34,432 nt of DNA from Alphaproteobacteria bacterium. GTDB lineage: Bacteria; Pseudomonadota; Alphaproteobacteria; CACIAM-22H2. Every line of letters begins with the position of its first letter. Position 1 is the stretch's first letter. The translations under genes and the position numbers were made by a program. Below, piece after piece: positions 17,430 to 32,143 of this stretch. The notes beneath the pieces are model-generated. The model did no database searches, had not been told where the DNA came from, and saw only the letters and a list, made by a program, of their open reading frames with translations. The stretch is taken from NCBI GenBank assembly GCA_016793045.1, contig JAEUKZ010000348.1:1-34432 (forward strand). Reading direction: 5' to 3'.

Positions 17430-18166
17430 ACTGCGCCGGCGAGCAGGCCGCCGGCGAGCGTGAGCGTGGCGCCGGTCATGTAGGCGGCATCGCGCGACAG
17501 CAGGAAGGAAACCGCGCCGGCCACCTCTTCCGACGTGCCGGCCCGGCGGCTCGGGATCGCGGCGGCGCGCTCCGCCGCGACCACGGCGGGCGCGACGCCG
17601 CGCGATTGCGCGAGCGCGGCATTCGCGGCATCGGTCATCGGCGTGTCGATCAGCCCCGGGCACAGGCAGTTCACGCGGATCTGCCGCTCGGCGAGGCCGA
17701 GCGCGAGGCTGGCCGCGAGACTGCGCAGCGCGGCCTTGCTGGCGGCATAGAGGAGATGGTCGGGCGTGCCGCGCAGCGCCGCGATCGAAGCCACGAACAC
17801 GGCAGCCGATCCCGGCGCCATGCGGTCGACGACGCGCTGGAACAGCAGCAGCGGCCCCTTGGCGTTGACGGCGAAGACGTGATCCCAGTCGGCGTCGGTG
17901 ATGTCCGCGAGCCGGCCGGTGTGGAAGACGCCGGCGCAATGGACGAATCCATCGAGCGTCGCAGCGCCGAGGTCGGCGACCGCCGCGCGCCCTGCCGCGG
18001 TCGCCAGATCGGCCGCGATCCACTGCGCAACCGGCAGGCCGGCCGGCGCAGAGCCGCGATCGGTCCCGATGACGCCAACGCCATCGTCGCGAAGGCGGCG
18101 CACGACGGCCCCGCCGATCGCACCGCCGGCCCCGGTGACCAGCACGGTCCGCGCGGCGCCGCTCAT
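17426..18166 (-). CDS. SDR oxidoreductase, last gene of the TRAP operon
   Basis: This is a 246-residue short-chain dehydrogenase. It has TGAGGAIG at 11-18, Asp36 after beta2 (GTDRG), which favours NAD over NADP, and HCAG near 76-79. The catalytic residues are Ser127, Tyr140 and Lys144 (YAASK), and PG(L)IDTPM lies near 181-188. The ATG at 18166 overlaps the stop of the GntR regulator gene in an ATGA arrangement, so the two are coupled. The context with a TRAP importer suggests oxidation of an imported hydroxy acid or sugar acid. The substrate is inference. It converges on the ABC permease with a shared CTAG stop. Confidence 0.9.
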   Translation of the reverse strand: MSGAARTVLVTGAGGAIGGAVVRRLRDDGVGVIGTDRGSAPAGLPVAQWIAADLATAAGRAAVADLGAATLDGFVHCAGVFHTGRLADITDADWDHVFAVNAKGPLLLFQRVVDRMAPGSAAVFVASIAALRGTPDHLLYAASKAALRSLAASLALGLAERQIRVNCLCPGLIDTPMTDAANAALAQSRGVAPAVVAAERAAAIPSRRAGTSEEVAGAVSFLLSRDAAYMTGATLTLAGGLLAGAV

Positions 18167-18867
18167 GAGCGGTCCACCACGCGGCCGGCCGAATCGAGGA
18201 TCTTCAGCAGATCCTGCGCCGCCTGGCCGACATGGCGCTGCGCGGCCGCCTCGACCGCGGCGGCGTCGCCGTCCCGCATCGCGGCGATGATCGCGGCGTG
18301 TTCGGCGAAGGTCGACTCGGCACGCCCGGGGATCAGCTTGTAGCCGAGGCGGAAGCGGAAGCAGCGGCCCCAGATGTCCTCGAGCATCCGCGCGAGGTGC
18401 GGGTTTGCCGCCGCCGACAGGATGGCGCGGTGGAACGCCCAGTTGGCGTCGGCCATCGACTGGAAGTCGCGCACTTCGTAGGCGGCACGCATGCGGCGCT
18501 CCGCCTCGACCAGTCGCTCGGCGCAGGCGGAAGCGCCGTTCTGCGCCGCCAGCCGCGCGGCCAGCGCCTCGAGCGCGCCGCGGATGTCGAAGAGCTGCGT
18601 GACATCCTGCACCGACAGGTCGGCGACATGCGTGTCCTTGTGCGGCGCGAGGGTGATCAGTCCTTCCTGCTCCAGCCGCGCGATTGCTTCGCGGATCGGC
18701 ATCACCGAGACCTGGAGCTGCTTCGCCAACGCCGCCAGGGTGATTCGCTGGCCCGGCGCGAGGCTGCCGCTCAGGATCTGCTCGCGGAGCTGCGCATAGA
18801 CGATCTCGGTCTTTGTCCGATAGGACGCCGGTGCAAGCGTCGGCATCGAGTCCGCGGGCGTGCTCAC
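18163..18867 (-). CDS. GntR-family regulator, FCD (FadR-like) type
   Basis: This is a 234-residue transcription factor. The N-terminal winged HTH spans about 20-80 (VYAQLREQILSGSLAPGQRI, then LAKQLQVSVMPIREAIARLE). The C-terminal FCD domain carries the likely metal/ligand-binding residues in DANWAFHRAI (His146), FAEH (His190) and QRHV (His212). A GTG at 18867 is chosen because CAGGA lies about 8 bp upstream. The ATG seven codons later has no such site. It is internal to the TRAP operon and probably senses the imported acid, repressing through the palindrome at 23075-23098. The regulator-operator pairing is inferred from family habit. A 115-bp gap before the gene leaves room for a second promoter. 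Confidence 0.92.
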   Translation of the reverse strand: MSTPADSMPTLAPASYRTKTEIVYAQLREQILSGSLAPGQRITLAALAKQLQVSVMPIREAIARLEQEGLITLAPHKDTHVADLSVQDVTQLFDIRGALEALAARLAAQNGASACAERLVEAERRMRAAYEVRDFQSMADANWAFHRAILSAAANPHLARMLEDIWGRCFRFRLGYKLIPGRAESTFAEHAAIIAAMRDGDAAAVEAAAQRHVGQAAQDLLKILDSAGRVVDRS

Positions 18868-18914
18868 GTCAACGTCCTGACCGGTGTTGCGCCGGTGCCG
18901 AGAATCGGATCGGG

Positions 18915-18936
18915 CATTGCAATCGAAATAGCAATG
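18915..18936. repeat. Inverted repeat upstream of the GntR gene
   Basis: CATTGC (18915-18920) and GCAATG (18931-18936) form a perfect six-base inverted repeat around a 10-bp A+T-rich centre. It lies 48 bp upstream of the GTG start and inside the 115-bp gap after the epimerase-like gene. It could be a second operator or a promoter-associated element. It does not resemble the 24-bp palindrome at 23075-23098. Confidence 0.35.
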
Positions 18937-18982
18937 ATCCGGTCCCGGCGCCACCACGGCGCATTCGGCGGCACGCTCGCTT

Positions 18983-19888
18983 TCATCGACCGCGCATCCT
19001 CGCGATCCAGTCGGGAATGCCCGTTTCCAGGGTGAAGCGCGGCCGGTAGCCGAGGTCGGCGGCCGCGCGGCTGACGTCGCACGGGCCGCGGATGTGCAGC
19101 TTTGGGTTCCGCCCCGGCCCTTGCGCAATCGCCGCCTGCGGCAGTTCGCGCCGGACGATCGCGGCGAACTCGCCGCGGGTGCGCAGCACGCCGGTGGTGA
19201 CGTTGTAGACGGAGTGCGGCAGCCGTTCAGCCTCGACTGCACGCAGGATGCCGCTGGCAAGGTCGACGACATAGGTGAAGTCGCAGGGGTGGTCGATCCC
19301 CGCCTCCTCGGTCACGGGCTGCCCAGCAAGCGCCGCCGGCACGAAATACTGGCCGATGCCGCTGCCCATGCCATAGACGAAGCCTGTCCGGATCGAGCAC
19401 GCCACGACACCATAGGTCTTGCGATAGGTCGCGCACAGCGTCTCGCCCATCAGCTTGGTCGCGTCGTAGAGGCTGACCGGATCGGGCGGCGAATCCTCGG
19501 TCAGCACGCCGAGTTCCGGGCGGTTGCCGTAGAGCGTCGCCGTCGAGAGATTGACGATGCGCGCGCCCGATCCGCGCGCGAGTTCGAGCACGTTGAACGT
19601 GCCGCCGACATTGACCGCGAATGCCGCCTCGGGCGCCTCGCGCGAACGGATCGGTCCGACGATGGCCGCACAGTTGACGATGACCGGGCAGCCCTCGGCT
19701 GCGGTGGCGAGCGCCTCGCGATCGCGCACGTCGCCGGTCACGAACTCCGCCCGGGCGGTCAGCGTCTGCAGCGCGTCGGACGGCGGGCGAGTGTCGAACA
19801 GACGCACGCGGTGTCCGGCCGCGACCGCCTGCTCGGTCACGTGGGCGCCGACGAAGCCGGCCCCGCCGACGATGAGGATCTGCACCAT
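18983..19888 (-). CDS. NAD-dependent epimerase/dehydratase-family protein
   Basis: This is a 301-residue extended SDR. The nucleotide-binding motif GGAGFVG (8-14) and Asp32 (LFDTRP) indicate NAD binding. The active site is Ser115/Thr116 with Tyr141 and Lys145 (YDATK). The length and fold suit sugar-nucleotide epimerases, and also sugar-acid dehydrogenases such as uronate or erythronate dehydrogenases. With a TRAP importer beside it, oxidation or epimerisation of a free sugar acid seems more likely than cell-wall chemistry, but this is inference. The ATG at 19888 lies 3 bp after the cupin stop. It has no signal peptide and is cytoplasmic. Confidence 0.88.
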   Translation of the reverse strand: MVQILIVGGAGFVGAHVTEQAVAAGHRVRLFDTRPPSDALQTLTARAEFVTGDVRDREALATAAEGCPVIVNCAAIVGPIRSREAPEAAFAVNVGGTFNVLELARGSGARIVNLSTATLYGNRPELGVLTEDSPPDPVSLYDATKLMGETLCATYRKTYGVVACSIRTGFVYGMGSGIGQYFVPAALAGQPVTEEAGIDHPCDFTYVVDLASGILRAVEAERLPHSVYNVTTGVLRTRGEFAAIVRRELPQAAIAQGPGRNPKLHIRGPCDVSRAAADLGYRPRFTLETGIPDWIARMRGR

Positions 19889-23074: not shown

Positions 23075-23098
23075 TCATATATGTGATCACATATATGA
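23075..23098. promoter_or_regulatory. Perfect 24-bp palindrome, candidate operator of the TRAP operon
   Basis: The 24 bases form a perfect inverted repeat centred between 23086 and 23087, with core TGTGATCACA flanked by TATA-type steps and ending in TCA/TGA. It is by far the most A+T-rich site of this region. It lies 54 bp upstream of the binding-protein start. A -35-like TTGACC on the minus strand (23109-23104) sits just upstream of it, so a bound repressor would cover the -10 region. FCD-type GntR proteins bind short A+T-flanked palindromes of this kind, and one is encoded in the operon. Binding itself is inferred. Confidence 0.7.
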
Positions 23099-23167: not shown

Positions 23168-25336
23168 TCAGTAGTTCAGGTTCTCCGCCGGATGCGGTGG
23201 CGCGCGACCCAGGATCGTCGCCATGGTTGCGTCGATGACGCCGGCATGGTTGTCGAAGCAGCCATGGACGGCGGGCGTGGTTCCCGCCCCCGGCGCGCTT
23301 CCCATGCCGACATTGTCCCGCGTCTCGACGACGAGGCGATCGGCTGCGGCGCCCGGCAACCCCTTCCAGAATTTCTGCCAGGCGACAAGTTCGCGCTCGT
23401 ACTCCGCCGCGGCATCCTCCGTGTTCCATTGCGCGGAGCCGTTGTGGCGCGGATCGAAGGCGAGTTGCAGCCCGAGGATCGGCGTCTTGTGGTCGCGCTC
23501 CAGCGCACGGCTGACCAGATAGAGCAGCGACTTTCCGTAGGGGCCGACGCTGTCCGCCTGCTCGAGAAGGTCTGACAGGACATGGATCCGCAGGCCGTCC
23601 TTGGCGAGTTTGCCCGCGGTCGCCGCGGCAGCATAGCGAGCATTGGCAAACCCGACCGTGCAGGCCGGCGCGAACAGCGTGCAGCTCGCAACCGCCCCGG
23701 GCAGATGATCGAGAAGATGCCCGAGGATGATCGCGCCCGCCGAGTGGCCGACAACATGGATCTCCAGCCTGTCGCCGCGCGCCGCGCGCAGCCGCGCGAG
23801 CGCTTCGGCAAGGCGCCGCCCGCCACGTCCCGGCTCGGCCGCCATGGCCGCGTTCTGCTTCATCTGGTCCCACAGCGCACGCACCAGCACCTGCCGCGCG
23901 CTCACTTCGAGCGCGCGATCCTTGGCCTCGATCGCGCTGTCCTTGAGATGCTGCAGCCAGTCCTTGATGCCGCGCGCCGGACCGACGAGTTCGGTCAGCA
24001 GGTCGTCGAGCATGCCGCCGATGCTCTCCTGCACGCCTGTCTTCCAGGTCAGGAACAGCGGATAGATGCCGTTCTGCTGAAAGCAGTGGCCCAGCGCGCG
24101 CACGCGCTCGAGCGAGGCAGCCTCGCTGTTCAGCCCGCCATGGGCGTAGATCACCAGCCGCTCGCGGCGGTCGCCGGCGCGATTGTCGTCGAACCACTGC
24201 GCCGGTATCGCGTGGCCGATCTTGTCGATCGTGTCGGCGACGTCGGCGTGTTCGACGATGCGCCGTTCCACCCGGCCGTCATTGCCGATCACCAGCGTGC
24301 GGCGGTAGGCCTCGTCGAGAGTCAGTCGCGGTTCGGCACTCTGCGCGCGGCGACCGACCGTGACGCCGATGCTGCTGGCAAGCGTCGCGCGCTGCATGTG
24401 GCGCTGCATGATGCGCGGCGTAGCGGCCATCTGCCGGCCCGCGCGCGCGACTTCCTTCGGCACGCCGAGCGCCGACGCCCAGGCGTCGGCGCCGAACTCC
24501 ACCCAGTCTTCGTAGGGCAGCAGCGCGAAGCCGCCGAGGCCCCAGCCCGGCCCCCACGAGTTCTGCACCACGAAGCCGCGTTTGTCGTAACCGACCAGCG
24601 CGAAGGCGTGGCCGCCATCCGCCTTGGCATTGCGCGCCTTCGCGATGACGGGGAGATTCTCGAAGGACATCGTCTTCTTGGTCTCGTCGAGATTCCAGCC
24701 GGAGTGAACGTCGGACGATACGTAGATCGCGCCGATCTCGGTGATCGCCGCCTGCATCTCGACGATGCTGTTCTTGTCGACCCGATAGTAGACGCCGAGC
24801 GGCCGCGTCAGTGCGTCGTCGTTCCAGCCGGTCCGGGGTTCGACGAACTCCTCCTTGCCGGCCGCATTGCGGTAGGGCCACAGATCCTCGGCGCAGACGC
24901 CGTGCTTGTGCCAGCCCTTGAGCGCGCCGCGGCAGCTCGATCCGTCGTAGTCCTCGCCCGGCCATTCGTCGTAGAGCCTCGCGAGGTGATAGATCATCCG
25001 CGGGCTTACCGAGGGAAAGCGCTTCGGCGAGCCCGCCTTGACCCACAGCAGATAGTTCACGACGCAGGACAGGCCGAAGCCGGTGCAGGCGCCTTCCTGT
25101 CCCTGATCCAGAATCAGCCCCGCCGCGACGTAGCGCGGCAGGAAGCGCGACAGCAGCTTGGGTTCGGGGAACTGATCGAGCAGCGAGCGCACCCGCGGCA
25201 TATAGGCCCGATCGCGCAGGTCCAGGCGGTCGCGCCTGGCATCGAGCAAACGCCCGGCAATCCTGTCGGTGCGAACCGGTTCGCGCATTGCGCGCGATGT
25301 CGCCGCGGCCTGGCGCGGCGTGGGCTTGGCGGCCAT
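23168..25336 (-). CDS. Fusion of papain-like cysteine peptidase and alpha/beta-hydrolase domains
   Basis: This 722-residue protein has two enzyme domains. Residues about 60-285 are a papain-like (C1) peptidase: Gln78 and Cys84 are spaced as Gln19 and Cys25 of papain (DQGQEGACTGFG), His243 lies in GGHAFALVGYD, and Asn259 lies in VQNSWGPGWG. The whole triad and oxyanion Gln are therefore present. There is no signal peptide and no recognisable inhibitory propeptide; the first 60 residues are charged. Residues about 390-715 look like a lipase/esterase-type alpha/beta-hydrolase: an HGG oxyanion-type loop (399-401), nucleophile elbow GHSAG with Ser532, a possible acid around Asp589 or Asp595, and His691 or His697 near the C-terminus. 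A helical, charged insert (about 440-520) separates the oxyanion loop from the elbow. The ATG at 25336 has a very strong ribosome-binding site (GGGAGGT). It stands alone between the TRAP operon and the ilvC terminator. Biological role unknown. Confidence 0.85.
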   Translation of the reverse strand: MAAKPTPRQAAATSRAMREPVRTDRIAGRLLDARRDRLDLRDRAYMPRVRSLLDQFPEPKLLSRFLPRYVAAGLILDQGQEGACTGFGLSCVVNYLLWVKAGSPKRFPSVSPRMIYHLARLYDEWPGEDYDGSSCRGALKGWHKHGVCAEDLWPYRNAAGKEEFVEPRTGWNDDALTRPLGVYYRVDKNSIVEMQAAITEIGAIYVSSDVHSGWNLDETKKTMSFENLPVIAKARNAKADGGHAFALVGYDKRGFVVQNSWGPGWGLGGFALLPYEDWVEFGADAWASALGVPKEVARAGRQMAATPRIMQRHMQRATLASSIGVTVGRRAQSAEPRLTLDEAYRRTLVIGNDGRVERRIVEHADVADTIDKIGHAIPAQWFDDNRAGDRRERLVIYAHGGLNSEAASLERVRALGHCFQQNGIYPLFLTWKTGVQESIGGMLDDLLTELVGPARGIKDWLQHLKDSAIEAKDRALEVSARQVLVRALWDQMKQNAAMAAEPGRGGRRLAEALARLRAARGDRLEIHVVGHSAGAIILGHLLDHLPGAVASCTLFAPACTVGFANARYAAAATAGKLAKDGLRIHVLSDLLEQADSVGPYGKSLLYLVSRALERDHKTPILGLQLAFDPRHNGSAQWNTEDAAAEYERELVAWQKFWKGLPGAAADRLVVETRDNVGMGSAPGAGTTPAVHGCFDNHAGVIDATMATILGRAPPHPAENLNY

Positions 25337-25393
25337 GCGTACCTCCCCCCGATCGATCGAACGGAAGAAATCCGACCAAGACGCGCCCAGGAC

Positions 25394-25422: not shown

Positions 25423-25453
25423 ACGTCAAAGGGGCGGGATTGCTCCCGCCCCT
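25421..25453 (-). terminator. Intrinsic terminator downstream of ilvC
   Basis: On the minus strand a 10-bp G+C-rich stem (25453-25444 pairing with 25439-25430) encloses the stable GCAA tetraloop and is followed by TTTGACGTTT. It begins about 35 bp past the ilvC stop. The T-tract is interrupted, so termination may be partial. Confidence 0.75.
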
Positions 25454-26573: not shown

Positions 26574-27377
26574 TCACACGGCGGTCTGGCGTTCCGGCAG
26601 CCGCTCCAACAGCAGCGGATTGGCGATCGGGCGGCGCGAGGCGACGAAGACGGCGCGCTGGTACTCGATCCCCGGTACCGCAGGCGCCGTCCAGTCCAGC
26701 GGGAATTCCTCGTGCGCCGGCTGGGTGGCGGGAACATAGACGTGGGCGAAATGCTGCTTGAGCTGCGCGAACAGCCAGGGCCGCGTCGGGCGTACGCCGC
26801 GGCCGGTGACCGCCTGGGTCGGCGCCTCGGCCGCCTCCTCTACGTTGCGCATGCCGGCCGCATCGCCGAGCGACACGGCCGTCTCCAGCAGCAGCAGATC
26901 CTGGCAGCGGCCCGCGAGTTGGCCGATCGCCAGCCCGGGGTCGGGAACGTGATAGAGCAGCCCGTAGCAATAGACGATGTCGAACCGTTCGGCGACGTGG
27001 CGGTCGAGGTCCTCGACCGCGCAGGGCAGCAAGGAGCAGCGCGCCGCCGCGCGATAGCCCGAGATGGCCAGCGAGCGCATCATGAACGCGAAGAGATTGC
27101 AGTTCTCCGGTCGCGGTTCGGTCGACAACACCGTGCAGCCGCGGTCGAGAAAGAAGGTCGTATGGTCGGCGATGCCGGCGCCGACTTCGAGGACCGTTCG
27201 ATTGGCGAGGTCGAGCCCCAGCGTCGCCAGATGCTCCTGCCGGCGCTGGTTGTGGCGCAGGTAGTGCGGAGTGCGGAACAGCTCGTAGGCCTTCTGCACG
27301 GCCGACTTTTCGGGCGCCGGCAGTTCGCCGGTGGGCGTGCGGATGCCGCTCCACTGGAAGCCTTGCGACTCGCTCAT
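26574..27377 (-). CDS. SAM-dependent methyltransferase, class I
   Basis: This is a 267-residue class I methyltransferase. Motif I is VLEVGAGIADHT near 61-72, the acidic residue after beta2 is in STEPRPEN near 84-91, and IVYCYGLLYHVPDP corresponds to the motif IV/post-IV region near 136-149. An N-terminal helical stretch (KAYELFRTPHYLRHNQRRQEH) and a C-terminal extension flank the Rossmann core. The substrate is not evident; similar domains methylate small molecules, glycans or lipids. The ATG at 27377 has GAGGATGA upstream and starts 4 bp after the LysE-family stop, so these two genes are coupled. The position between a metabolite exporter and ilvC is unusual. Confidence 0.85.
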   Translation of the reverse strand: MSESQGFQWSGIRTPTGELPAPEKSAVQKAYELFRTPHYLRHNQRRQEHLATLGLDLANRTVLEVGAGIADHTTFFLDRGCTVLSTEPRPENCNLFAFMMRSLAISGYRAAARCSLLPCAVEDLDRHVAERFDIVYCYGLLYHVPDPGLAIGQLAGRCQDLLLLETAVSLGDAAGMRNVEEAAEAPTQAVTGRGVRPTRPWLFAQLKQHFAHVYVPATQPAHEEFPLDWTAPAVPGIEYQRAVFVASRRPIANPLLLERLPERQTAV

Positions 27378-27381
27378 CGGA

Positions 27382-28005
27382 TCATCCTCTGTCGAGCACG
27401 AGTTTGAGGCCGAGCGCCCCGAGCACGCCTGCGACGGCGCGGTCGAGCCAGACCTTGATGGACGCGTAGACGCGGCGCACCGGCGCCGCCGAGAAGGACA
27501 GGGCGAGCGTCGTATACCACAGCGTCTCGTTGAACAGCACGATCGCGAGAGTCGCCGCCCACACCCAGGCCGGCGCATGCGCCGGCAGCAGGGCGACGAA
27601 GACGCTGCCGAAGAAGACGACGACCTTGGGGTTTGAGAGCTGCGACAGCAGCGCGACCACGAAGGCGCGCAGAGGGTCGCGCGTGGCGCCGCCCTTCATA
27701 TCGACCGTGATCGGTGCGCGCGCGCCGCGCCACACCATCACGGCGATGTAGATCAGGTAGAGCCCGCCGAGGAACTGGATCGCGCGATAGAGCCAGGCGA
27801 GTTCGGCGAACAGCAGCGCCAGGCCGAAGATCGCAGCCGCCGCCCAGATCCAGGCACCGAGCACCATGCCCGCCGCCGCGGCAAGGCCGGCGCGGCGCGA
27901 GCCCGCAACCGCGATGCGTGCGACCAGGACGAAGCTCGGCCCCGGACTGATCGCGGCGAGCAGATTGGCGGCAGCGATGCCGAGCAGCGGCAGCATGTAT
28001 TCCAT
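27382..28005 (-). CDS. LysE/RhtB-family amino acid exporter (second copy)
   Basis: This is a 207-residue LysE/RhtB-family exporter with about six membrane segments. The N-terminal LLAAISPGPSFVLVARIAVA carries the conserved PGP motif. LSQLSNPKVVVFFGSVF near 117-133 is the family N-P-K motif, and ALGLKLVLDRG forms the usual C-terminus. The ATG at 28005 has GGGGAGG upstream. It differs clearly from the LysE-family gene at 10932, so it is not a recent duplicate. It lies 20 bp after an exported hydrolase gene and 4 bp before a methyltransferase gene. Location inside the branched-chain amino acid cluster makes an amino acid or derivative a reasonable but unproven substrate. Confidence 0.9.
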   Translation of the reverse strand: MEYMLPLLGIAAANLLAAISPGPSFVLVARIAVAGSRRAGLAAAAGMVLGAWIWAAAAIFGLALLFAELAWLYRAIQFLGGLYLIYIAVMVWRGARAPITVDMKGGATRDPLRAFVVALLSQLSNPKVVVFFGSVFVALLPAHAPAWVWAATLAIVLFNETLWYTTLALSFSAAPVRRVYASIKVWLDRAVAGVLGALGLKLVLDRG

Positions 28006-28025
28006 CGGCGTTCCTCCCCTGGATG

Positions 28026-28862
28026 TCAGCGCCGGTCGATCCAGCCGGCGATGGCGGCGACGACCTCCGCCTCGATGCCGTAAAAACTGTGTGCGCCGTA
28101 GAGGCCGCAAGTTCCCGCCTCAGGCGACGCCGCACTGCTGACCAGCAGCATGTCCTGGCGCGGCGCGCCGGACAGCTGGAAGCGCAGCGCCTGGGCGCCG
28201 GCGAGCGGCGTGCACGCATCGAGCCTGTTGTGCACGAGCAAGGTCGGCACGCGGATATCCGCAAGGCTCGGTCCATGCGTCGCGATGATCGGGCGCGCCA
28301 CCGAGGCCGTCAGCACGATGCCGTCCGGCCCGCGCGTCGGCGGCAGCAGCGCCGCCGCATAAGCCGCCGAACGCGTGCCGTTGCTGCTGCCCACCAGCCA
28401 CACCGGCAAATCGGCCGCGCGACGACGGACGTCGGCGATCACCGCCGCGAGATCGGCGAGATGCTCCGGCGTGTTGCGGAACGCGGTCGGCATGCCGCCG
28501 CGCAGATCGGACGGCACCTCGACCAAGACCGTATAGGCGCCACGGTCGCGGAACAGCGGACTCGATCGAACGAGGAAACTGCCGTCGCGCGTCCATGCGG
28601 CGTCGGCATTGGCGGGAATGCCGGTCACGCCATTGCCGCCGACCAGGAGGACTGCGGCAAACGATGGCCGACCGGGCGGAACGAGGGTCAGCATACGAAC
28701 GGTGACGCCGGGCCGGGTCGGCAGATCAGCGACGAACGCACTGCCAGGCGCCTGCGCGCTTGCCGGCGCGCCCGCCACGATCAGACCGACCACGAATGCG
28801 ACGCATGCCGCCGCGTGCATCAGCCGCAGTCCGCACATCGACATCCACCGGGCGTCATTCAT
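28026..28862 (-). CDS. Exported alpha/beta-hydrolase, paralogue 1
   Basis: This is a 278-residue secreted hydrolase. A signal peptide with hydrophobic core near 16-33 ends in ASAQA. The alpha/beta-hydrolase triad can be read as Ser160 (GSSNG), Asp215 (VHNRLDACTP) and His258 (YGAHSF). It shares long stretches with its neighbour at 28878-29702: VADLPTRPGVT near the N-terminus, AAVLLVGGNG, AAW-R-G-FL-R, and the SNGT after the nucleophile. Two Cys (217 and 252) match Cys210 and Cys247 of the paralogue and may form a disulfide. The start is uncertain: ATG codons also occur at 28844, 28838 and 28820, and none has a strong ribosome-binding site. Substrate unknown. Confidence 0.82.
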   Translation of the reverse strand: MNDARWMSMCGLRLMHAAACVAFVVGLIVAGAPASAQAPGSAFVADLPTRPGVTVRMLTLVPPGRPSFAAVLLVGGNGVTGIPANADAAWTRDGSFLVRSSPLFRDRGAYTVLVEVPSDLRGGMPTAFRNTPEHLADLAAVIADVRRRAADLPVWLVGSSNGTRSAAYAAALLPPTRGPDGIVLTASVARPIIATHGPSLADIRVPTLLVHNRLDACTPLAGAQALRFQLSGAPRQDMLLVSSAASPEAGTCGLYGAHSFYGIEAEVVAAIAGWIDRR

Positions 28863-28877
28863 GTCGCGATGTCCGGC

Positions 28878-29702
28878 TCAGTTCCCCGCGGCCATCCATT
28901 CCACCATGGCATCGACGGCCTGCGCCTCGACACCGAGGAAGCCATGGGGAGCCAGCGGTTCGCAAGGCCCGGAGCGCGGCGCGTCGCCGCCTGCGACGGC
29001 CACGACATCGACGCGCGAAGCGCCCGACAGGCGGCGGCGCAACAACTCCGCCCCGGCAAACGGCGAGGCATAGCAGGCGTCGTCGCGGTGATGGAGGAGC
29101 AGCGTCGGAACGCGGATGTTCGCGAGCGCGACATCGTTCACCGTCAGGGCGCCACTTTCGCGGCCGACGCGCCCGATGCGCGTCACCGTCGCACTGAGCA
29201 CCACGCCGTCGACCGTACCGGGCGGCAGCTGGGCCGCGGCGCTCGCGGCCGACAGGGTCCCGTTACTGGTGCCGATCAGCCACACCCGTGTGACGCCCCA
29301 GCGCCGCCGTGCCTCGGCCGCCATCGCGCCGAGATCCGCCGCGTGCGCCGCCGACAAGCGCCAGTTGCCGAGGCCGTCGCGATGGTCGGACGGCGGGCCG
29401 ACGACGATTGCCAGGATGCCTCGCTGGCGCAGCAGTTCTCGAGCGCGAAGAAGAAAATTGCCATTGCGGGCCCAGGCCGCGCTGCCGCGATCGGGGATCG
29501 ACAGCGCTCCGTTTCCGCCGACAAGCAGGACCGCGGCGACGGTCGGCCGACGGTCCGGTTCGACCGCCAGATAGCGCATCGTCACCCCGGGCCGGGTCGG
29601 CAGGTCGGCGACCACGCCGTCCGCCCTGCCCTGCGCCGAAGCCGCCGGCGCGCCGGCCAGGATCGCGACGATCACCGCGGCGCCGAGCGCCGGCGCGATC
29701 AC
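28878..29702 (-). CDS. Exported alpha/beta-hydrolase, paralogue 2
   Basis: This is a 274-residue secreted alpha/beta-hydrolase, a tandem paralogue of the product of 28026-28862. The signal peptide (hydrophobic 4-20) ends at ASAQG. The triad is Ser146 (GTSNG), Asp208 (HHRDDAC) and His253 (APHGF), and the conserved cysteines are Cys210 and Cys247. The start is a GTG at 29702 that overlaps the ilvN stop codon (GTGA), which ties its translation to ilvN. The frame is open far upstream through ilvN and ilvB, but only this start places the signal peptide at the N-terminus. The paralogue follows after 15 bp. No known link exists between this type of enzyme and branched-chain amino acid synthesis. Confidence 0.83.
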   Translation of the reverse strand: MIAPALGAAVIVAILAGAPAASAQGRADGVVADLPTRPGVTMRYLAVEPDRRPTVAAVLLVGGNGALSIPDRGSAAWARNGNFLLRARELLRQRGILAIVVGPPSDHRDGLGNWRLSAAHAADLGAMAAEARRRWGVTRVWLIGTSNGTLSAASAAAQLPPGTVDGVVLSATVTRIGRVGRESGALTVNDVALANIRVPTLLLHHRDDACYASPFAGAELLRRRLSGASRVDVVAVAGGDAPRSGPCEPLAPHGFLGVEAQAVDAMVEWMAAGN

Positions 29703-30211
29703 AGCCCCTGGCCGCCGCGCGCGATCGCGACGACGCCGGTCCGGCTCACCTCGACGAGGCCGAGCGGCTCCATCAGGGCGATGAAGGCGTTGATCTTGTC
29801 GGTCGACCCCGTGACCTCGAAGACGAAGGACTTGATCGTCGAGTCGACCGCCCGGGCGCGGAAGATGTCGGCAATGCGCAGCGATTCCACGCGCTTCTCG
29901 CCGGTCGCGGCAACCTTGACCAGCGCAAGCTCGCGTTCGACCGCCGGCCCGCCGAGGGTGAGGTCGCAGACCTTGTGGACCGGCACGAGGCGATCGAGCT
30001 GCGCCTTGATCTGCTCGATCACCATCGGGGTCCCCGTGGTGACGATGGTGATGCGAGAGAGATGCGCATGCGCATCGGTCTCGGAGACGGTCAGGCTTTC
30101 GATGTTGTAGCCGCGGCCGGAGAACAGCCCGACGACACGGGCGAGGATGCCCGGCTCGTTGTCGACCAGGACGGCGATGGTGTGGCGTGCGGTGGGTTGC
30201 GGTTGGGTCAT
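29699..30211 (-). CDS. ilvN: Acetolactate synthase small (regulatory) subunit
   Basis: This is a 170-residue regulatory subunit of acetohydroxyacid synthase, which stimulates the catalytic subunit and confers valine feedback inhibition. The N-terminal ACT domain holds the valine-site segment NEPGILARVVGLFSGRGYNI (18-37), followed by the second ACT-like domain (ELALVKV near 94-100) and the conserved C-terminal region around ARAVDSTIKSFVFEVTGS. The ATG at 30211 starts right before the ACT domain; the frame runs on to 30277 without support. It lies 129 bp after ilvB. Its stop overlaps the GTG of an exported hydrolase gene. Size and motifs fit the long-form (IlvH-like) subunits. Confidence 0.97.
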   Translation of the reverse strand: MTQPQPTARHTIAVLVDNEPGILARVVGLFSGRGYNIESLTVSETDAHAHLSRITIVTTGTPMVIEQIKAQLDRLVPVHKVCDLTLGGPAVERELALVKVAATGEKRVESLRIADIFRARAVDSTIKSFVFEVTGSTDKINAFIALMEPLGLVEVSRTGVVAIARGGQGL

Positions 30212-30232
30212 CGATCGGAACCAGACTGGAGG

Positions 30233-30268
30233 GCCGAGCGGGGCTCGGCGGAGCCGGGAGCGCCCCGG
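30233..30268. repeat. Short stem-loops in the ilvB-ilvN gap
   Basis: The 129-bp gap between ilvB and ilvN holds a 7-bp stem (30233-30239 with 30243-30249, 3-nt loop) and, next to it, a 5-6-bp stem around 30253-30269. They may stabilise or process the ilvBN transcript. In DNA this G+C-rich such stems can also occur by chance. Confidence 0.3.
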
Positions 30269-30340
30269 CCCCGACATGGGGTGGAGAAACGGCGCCGCGT
30301 CCGGCGCTCAGCGACGAGGGCCGACGCGGCGCGGCGACGC

Positions 30341-32143
<1,803 letters not shown>

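Follow-up and report, generated by a model that had tools for sequence, protein, structure and literature searches.

The window, a 34,432-nucleotide stretch of alphaproteobacterial DNA, contains an open reading frame at positions 23168..25336 of the minus strand that starts with ATG and encodes a 722-residue fusion of a C1 peptidase and an alpha/beta-hydrolase. All coordinates of its features given below are on this strand. A strong Shine-Dalgarno sequence, GGAGGT (25341..25346), was read 4 nt ahead of the ATG. The neighbors are ilvC and a methyltransferase gene upstream, a TRAP transporter operon downstream, and a gene for a GntR regulator. The 151 bp between ilvC and the fusion gene hold an intrinsic-terminator-like hairpin past ilvC, GGGGCGGGA-GCAA-TCCCGCCCC-TTT (25428..25452, minus strand), so the fusion gene probably has its own promoter. 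Its codon usage is nearest to that of its neighbors (distance 0.125; ten window ORFs compared), and in the closest relative (G015) ilvC likewise lies 2.5 kb upstream of the fusion homolog. The native codon usage and the position common to both genomes point to a resident gene, with no sign of recent insertion. The initial annotation had assigned the gene to an accessory region, which these observations make doubtful. A perfect 24-bp palindrome, TCATATATGTGATCACATATATGA, is located at 23075-23098 between the fusion gene and the start of the TRAP gene dctP. It is likely the operator of the TRAP operon and possibly the site for the GntR/FCD regulator encoded at 18163-19272. Two other window ORFs, 27374-28276 and 28878-31739, were set aside as probably wrong frames (GC3 ~0.55 versus 0.84-0.94).

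No conflict gene linked to the fusion gene was found within the window. The locus was searched for a linked NTPase, EAD or other sensor and none was found, and MoxR, vWA, and a fused or adjacent caspase are absent from the window. Nor does the locus contain a NucA or trypsin gene or a murein hydrolase, either fused to the protein or adjacent. Three caspase genes are present elsewhere in the 5.3-Mb genome. PADLOC models gave no match to the fusion protein at E up to 1, and hydropathy analysis revealed no signal peptide or transmembrane helix in the 722 residues.

Domain organization of the fusion protein

The peptidase domain spans residues 61-292 (24461..25156). Pfam Peptidase_C1 (PF00112) matched residues 76-272 with E=9.7e-8, above the family cut-off. 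The best solved relative by sequence is xylellain (3ois; E=7e-15), which Foldseek also ranked first for the AlphaFold2 model of the peptidase half (E=1.6e-15, TM 0.74 by target). The active site comprises Gln78 of the oxyanion hole (25103..25105), the nucleophile Cys84 (25085..25087), His243 (24608..24610), and Asn259 (24560..24562), all invariant in 49 aligned homologs. With this Gln/Cys/His/Asn site on a papain profile and modeled fold, the peptidase half is predicted to be a C1A papain family member of the xylellain type. The protein was originally described as having neither an export signal nor a classical propeptide. We also found no signal peptide and no I29-type propeptide, but residues 31-60 (25157..25246) form a conserved segment with the motif DxxDxRDxxYxP that lines up with xylellain's own N-terminal segment. 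Its conservation score, 0.66, equals that of the peptidase core (0.66), and D36, D39, R41, and D42 are invariant wherever the segment is present among the 49 homologs. The full-length AlphaFold2 model, built from 49 sequences, has a mean pLDDT of 85 and a pTM of 0.81. The domains are joined by a flexible, poorly conserved linker (residues 293-342, 24311..24460; conservation 0.24) that is disordered at about residues 299-333, where pLDDT is ~40.

Residues 343-722 (23171..24310) form the alpha/beta-hydrolase domain, which hhalign places in a family of caspase-paired hydrolases. Modeled alone, the domain reaches pLDDT 87 and pTM 0.87. Pfam sees this half weakly, its alpha/beta-hydrolase families matching with E=0.007. 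Ser532 (23741..23743) sits in a GHSAG elbow that follows strand 524-531 in the model, and a helical insertion (residues 435-522, 23771..24034), weakly conserved and partly of low confidence, lies ahead of this nucleophile strand. The candidate catalytic acid is within E592-D595 (23552..23563) and the candidate catalytic histidine is His691 of HGxFDN (23264..23266). Ser532, E592, D595, and H691 are invariant in the same 49 homologs, and the alpha/beta-hydrolase order of GxSxG elbow, acid, and histidine is satisfied. The initial annotation had pointed to a downstream acid and histidine; the histidine and E592/D595 are conserved, but D589 varies among the homologs, so D595 (or E592) is more likely to be the catalytic acid. 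The nearest solved folds are cutinases, which rank first, and monoglyceride lipases, and the match is weak (E ~0.01, TM <0.4). A profile search found no close PDB relative of the domain. These results make the hydrolase half a divergent alpha/beta-hydrolase. It is probably a lipase or esterase, and its substrate may be a lipid. The initial description of two complete catalytic domains in one lone gene is supported, and Q78, C84, H243, N259, and Ser532 of GHSAG are where they were first placed.

Distribution and relatives of the fusion

A scan of GTDB genome contigs returned at least 503 relatives among at least 589 pattern matches. The best 80 of the at least 503 are nearly full length, share 42-64% identity, and keep the fusion in the same order, and they come from Pseudomonadota, Thermodesulfobacteriota, Nitrospirota, Verrucomicrobiota, and Planctomycetota. 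Where they are annotated at all, the homologs carry the sole label 'C1 family peptidase', and under this name the fusion is also present on rhizobial and burkholderial plasmids. That Q78, C84, H243, N259, S532, E592, D595, and H691 are all invariant in 49 homologs is far from chance. A distant relative (L019:5923-7875) has an intact papain site and a dead hydrolase, with CDGAG at the elbow and the histidine lost. This gene is followed after 25 bp by a gene for a GDSL-caspase fusion, which may supply the missing lipase. In Paracoccus (L020:5014-7545) a Trypsin_2 domain is joined to a relative of the C1 peptidase domain. The extra N-terminal stretch of a 1498-codon open frame in G013 (L157) was discounted as a shadow frame with no domain. 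The fusion was also not considered a phage gene: phage records match the peptidase part alone, with two matches in viral contigs. A literature search found no paper on a papain-type peptidase fused to an alpha/beta-hydrolase.

Some relatives carry additional enzymes. A GH19 motif precedes the papain domain in 22 of the best 80 of the at least 503 loci, and most of the GH19-bearing fusions that were scanned have PG_binding_1 as well. Other N-terminal modules are a Muramidase (L161) and an endolysin-like module (L160). On the tree, the murein-hydrolase modules, including the Amidase_2 of the caspase-fused proteins described below, require five changes, at least four of them forced by strongly supported branches. 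The relatives gained N-terminal murein-hydrolase modules about five separate times. Where the fused module is absent, a separate gene for a murein hydrolase is often found immediately upstream in the plasmid loci. These genes encode DUF2272-SH3 (L012), CHAP-PG_binding (L014 and L133), Amidase_2-PG_binding (L015), CHAP (L019), and Phage_lysozyme (L134). Peroxidase genes also occur near L014 and L015, and an animal-type heme peroxidase gene (L168:6804-8714) overlaps the start of another papain-hydrolase gene. A 577-residue protein of no known family is encoded directly upstream of the papain-hydrolase gene in L013 (L013:4005-5738).

The hydrolase half was compared with stand-alone hydrolases encoded next to caspases on rhizobial plasmids. 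The profiles of the fusion and of these plasmid hydrolases match with an hhalign probability of 99.9% (E=1e-33). The motifs HGGL, GHSAGSI, APA, E..D, Y..SLLY, and HG.FDDD are common to both types. The profile match and the motifs show that the hydrolase of the fusion and the caspase-paired hydrolases share common descent. Eight stand-alone loci were examined (L021, L131-L135, L163, and L164), and a caspase is the immediate next gene in all except L164. With the three caspase genes of the window's 5.3-Mb genome as a guide, this adjacency in 7 of 8 loci is not chance. In most of these loci the caspase is followed by a further gene, for trypsin-NucA (L131), PLD-trypsin (L021), or pYEATS (L133-L135), and the L135 operon opens with a STAND-like AAA_16-TPR protein. 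The hydrolase also occurs between an N-terminal Amidase_2 and a C-terminal caspase in three triple-fusion proteins, from Kovacikia (L022:3065-6046), L162, and L166; their hosts are one cyanobacterium and two other genomes. In a tree built from 74 hydrolase domains, a branch with SH-aLRT 94 has the papain-fused members on one side, and another with SH-aLRT 93 has the caspase-fused members on one side. The simplest reading of this tree would be a single swap of the peptidase partner between caspase and papain, the direction of which depends on the root. About 240 residues separate strand 4 from the nucleophile elbow in the stand-alone caspase-adjacent hydrolases (L131-L135, L021, and L163) versus about 92 in the peptidase-fused ones, a correlation in few sequences that hints at a possible protease-cut gate in the caspase-adjacent proteins.

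Some papain-fused genes lie in similar company. Caspase genes adjoin those of L019 and L093, a trypsin-NucA gene is 20 bp downstream of that of L102, trypsin, YLATT, and caspase genes stand alongside that of L017, and pYEATS is near that of L034. Caspase, trypsin-NucA, trypsin, or pYEATS is close to about 5 of some 97 papain-fused loci, and most lack them. Neighbor clustering over 90 loci gave no recurrent partner gene, and most close homologs have variable housekeeping neighbors. The phmmer matches in L158 and L168 were rejected as caspases: what they matched was the probe's GDSL/SGNH lipase part, and Pfam found no caspase. A search of the available literature found no paper on pYEATS or YLATT.

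Proposed function and comparison with known systems

The fusion protein is predicted to be a cytosolic bifunctional hydrolase with a papain-type peptidase in place of the caspase of its relatives. Two published studies offer parallels. The conflict systems predicted by Kaur et al. 2020 (PMC7159879) include some whose caspase always comes with an alpha/beta-hydrolase, as well as NucA-trypsin systems (System 3), to which lysozyme- and papain-like effector domains are recruited. In a Science 2025 study (PMC12799240), pro-nucleases were proven to be switched on by trypsin and caspase partners in phage defense, and further protease-gated enzymes were foreseen. We propose, as the best of several readings and at just under an even chance, that the fusion is a regulated protease-hydrolase effector of bacterial conflict, acting in anti-invader defense or self-lysis, in an orphan single-gene form. 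The proposal draws on these parallels, on the invariant residues of the two catalytic sites, on the profile match to the caspase-adjacent hydrolases, on the three Amidase_2-hydrolase-caspase proteins, and further on evidence from the caspase, trypsin-NucA, PLD-trypsin, pYEATS, and STAND-like partners in the operons of the hydrolase relatives, from the repeated gain of murein-hydrolase modules, and from the five papain-fused genes (L019, L093, L102, L017, and L034) in conflict loci. A toxin or defense effector had been suggested from the outset. Its support is indirect, coming from the company that the hydrolase relatives keep, STAND-like NTPase and murein hydrolases included, but the window itself has no linked conflict gene. 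The small share of papain-fused loci with such neighbors, the lack of a PADLOC match, and the signs of a resident gene also count against a conflict role.

A rather improbable alternative is that the protein is a resident processing or turnover enzyme uninvolved in conflict, whose peptidase and esterase act together on an internal substrate (storage material and acylated proteins are examples). The lone gene in its metabolic setting, its native codon usage, and the ilvC near the closest relative all favor such an enzyme, as do close betaproteobacterial homologs flanked solely by variable housekeeping genes. Its distribution argues the other way: it is patchy, and of 23 genomes in the organism's own family 4 have the full fusion, one of these represented by two partial contig hits. 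The links of the hydrolase relatives to caspase, trypsin-NucA, pYEATS, and murein hydrolases, and the recurrent acquisition of endolysin-type modules, also speak against a resident enzyme.

The murein-, protein-, and lipid-degrading activities could instead be the cargo of an antibacterial effector sent into rival cells by a type VI or similar system. The module set is alike (GH19, muramidase, amidase, and lipase-like), and L134 encodes a Tle1-like protein close to its hydrolase-caspase operon. However, a VgrG domain search around the fusion genes found no VgrG/Phage_GPD gene, and VgrG/Phage_GPD is absent from 13-14 of 21 genomes or records, several of which are plasmid records with the chromosomes unseen. 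There is no consistent close candidate immunity gene, with a same-strand gene at most 60 bp downstream in 13 of 78 cases, and the protein has no export signal. Type VI delivery of the fusion protein is therefore disfavored and is judged quite unlikely. An assembly or gene-calling artefact that joined two genes is rejected as next to impossible, because the same order and linker recur across at least five phyla in independent genomes, complete plasmids and isolates among them.

In the proposed conflict effector, a trigger would unlock the papain-type peptidase. The peptidase would then cleave proteins of the cell or the invader, or unlock its own hydrolase, or both. The unlocked hydrolase would attack lipids or other esters, and in some relatives a murein hydrolase is added to the pair. 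The initial annotation suggested that one domain might control the other, which agrees with the coupling of protease and hydrolase seen across the family. A more specific model, judged rather unlikely, is a one-polypeptide, protease-gated lytic device. Here papain, in the stead of caspase, would cut or release the hydrolase, perhaps within the variable insertion that lies past strand 4 and ahead of the nucleophile strand or in the disordered linker, and together with a murein hydrolase in some relatives it would degrade the wall, membrane, and proteins of the infected cell. If true, this model would broaden protease-gated immunity to include lipases besides nucleases, and papain besides trypsin and caspase. 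Pairing a protease with another, dangerous enzyme has recently been recognized as a logic of bacterial immunity, established with nucleases (PMC12799240). A widespread fusion family labeled 'C1 family peptidase' couples its protease in like manner to a lipase-like hydrolase, with the protease exchanged between the caspase and papain clans. If the conflict role is true, the lone gene would offer a simple handle on protease-gated envelope attack, and direct comparison of the caspase-fused with the papain-fused versions would be possible.

The peptidase half resembles xylellain, the C1A peptidase of Xylella fastidiosa (3ois), by sequence, fold, and N-terminal segment, but xylellain, at 291 residues in the PDB, has no counterpart of the 380-residue hydrolase domain. 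That domain is a GxSxG serine hydrolase like the cutinases and monoglyceride lipases, although the fold match is weak. VMAP and other NTP-dependent conflict systems (PMC7159879) also couple a cysteine peptidase to an alpha/beta-hydrolase. In VMAP-type systems a caspase neighbors the hydrolase, whereas in the window the peptidase is papain-type and fused, and there is no NTPase, EAD, MoxR, or vWA. The relatives in L102 and L131 adjoin trypsin-NucA genes of the kind found in NucA-trypsin systems (PMC7159879), whereas the window locus has neither trypsin nor NucA. The nuclease-protease pairs and canu systems (PMC12799240) share with this family a protease plus a second, possibly gated enzyme, and trypsin and caspase interchange in them. 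Their partner is an MBL nuclease, whereas the window protein pairs an alpha/beta-hydrolase with a papain-type peptidase, and gating in the window family would be by analogy. Set against these systems, the apparently new features are the exchange of papain for caspase in a peptidase-hydrolase pair, its orphan form, and the repeated gain of murein-hydrolase modules.
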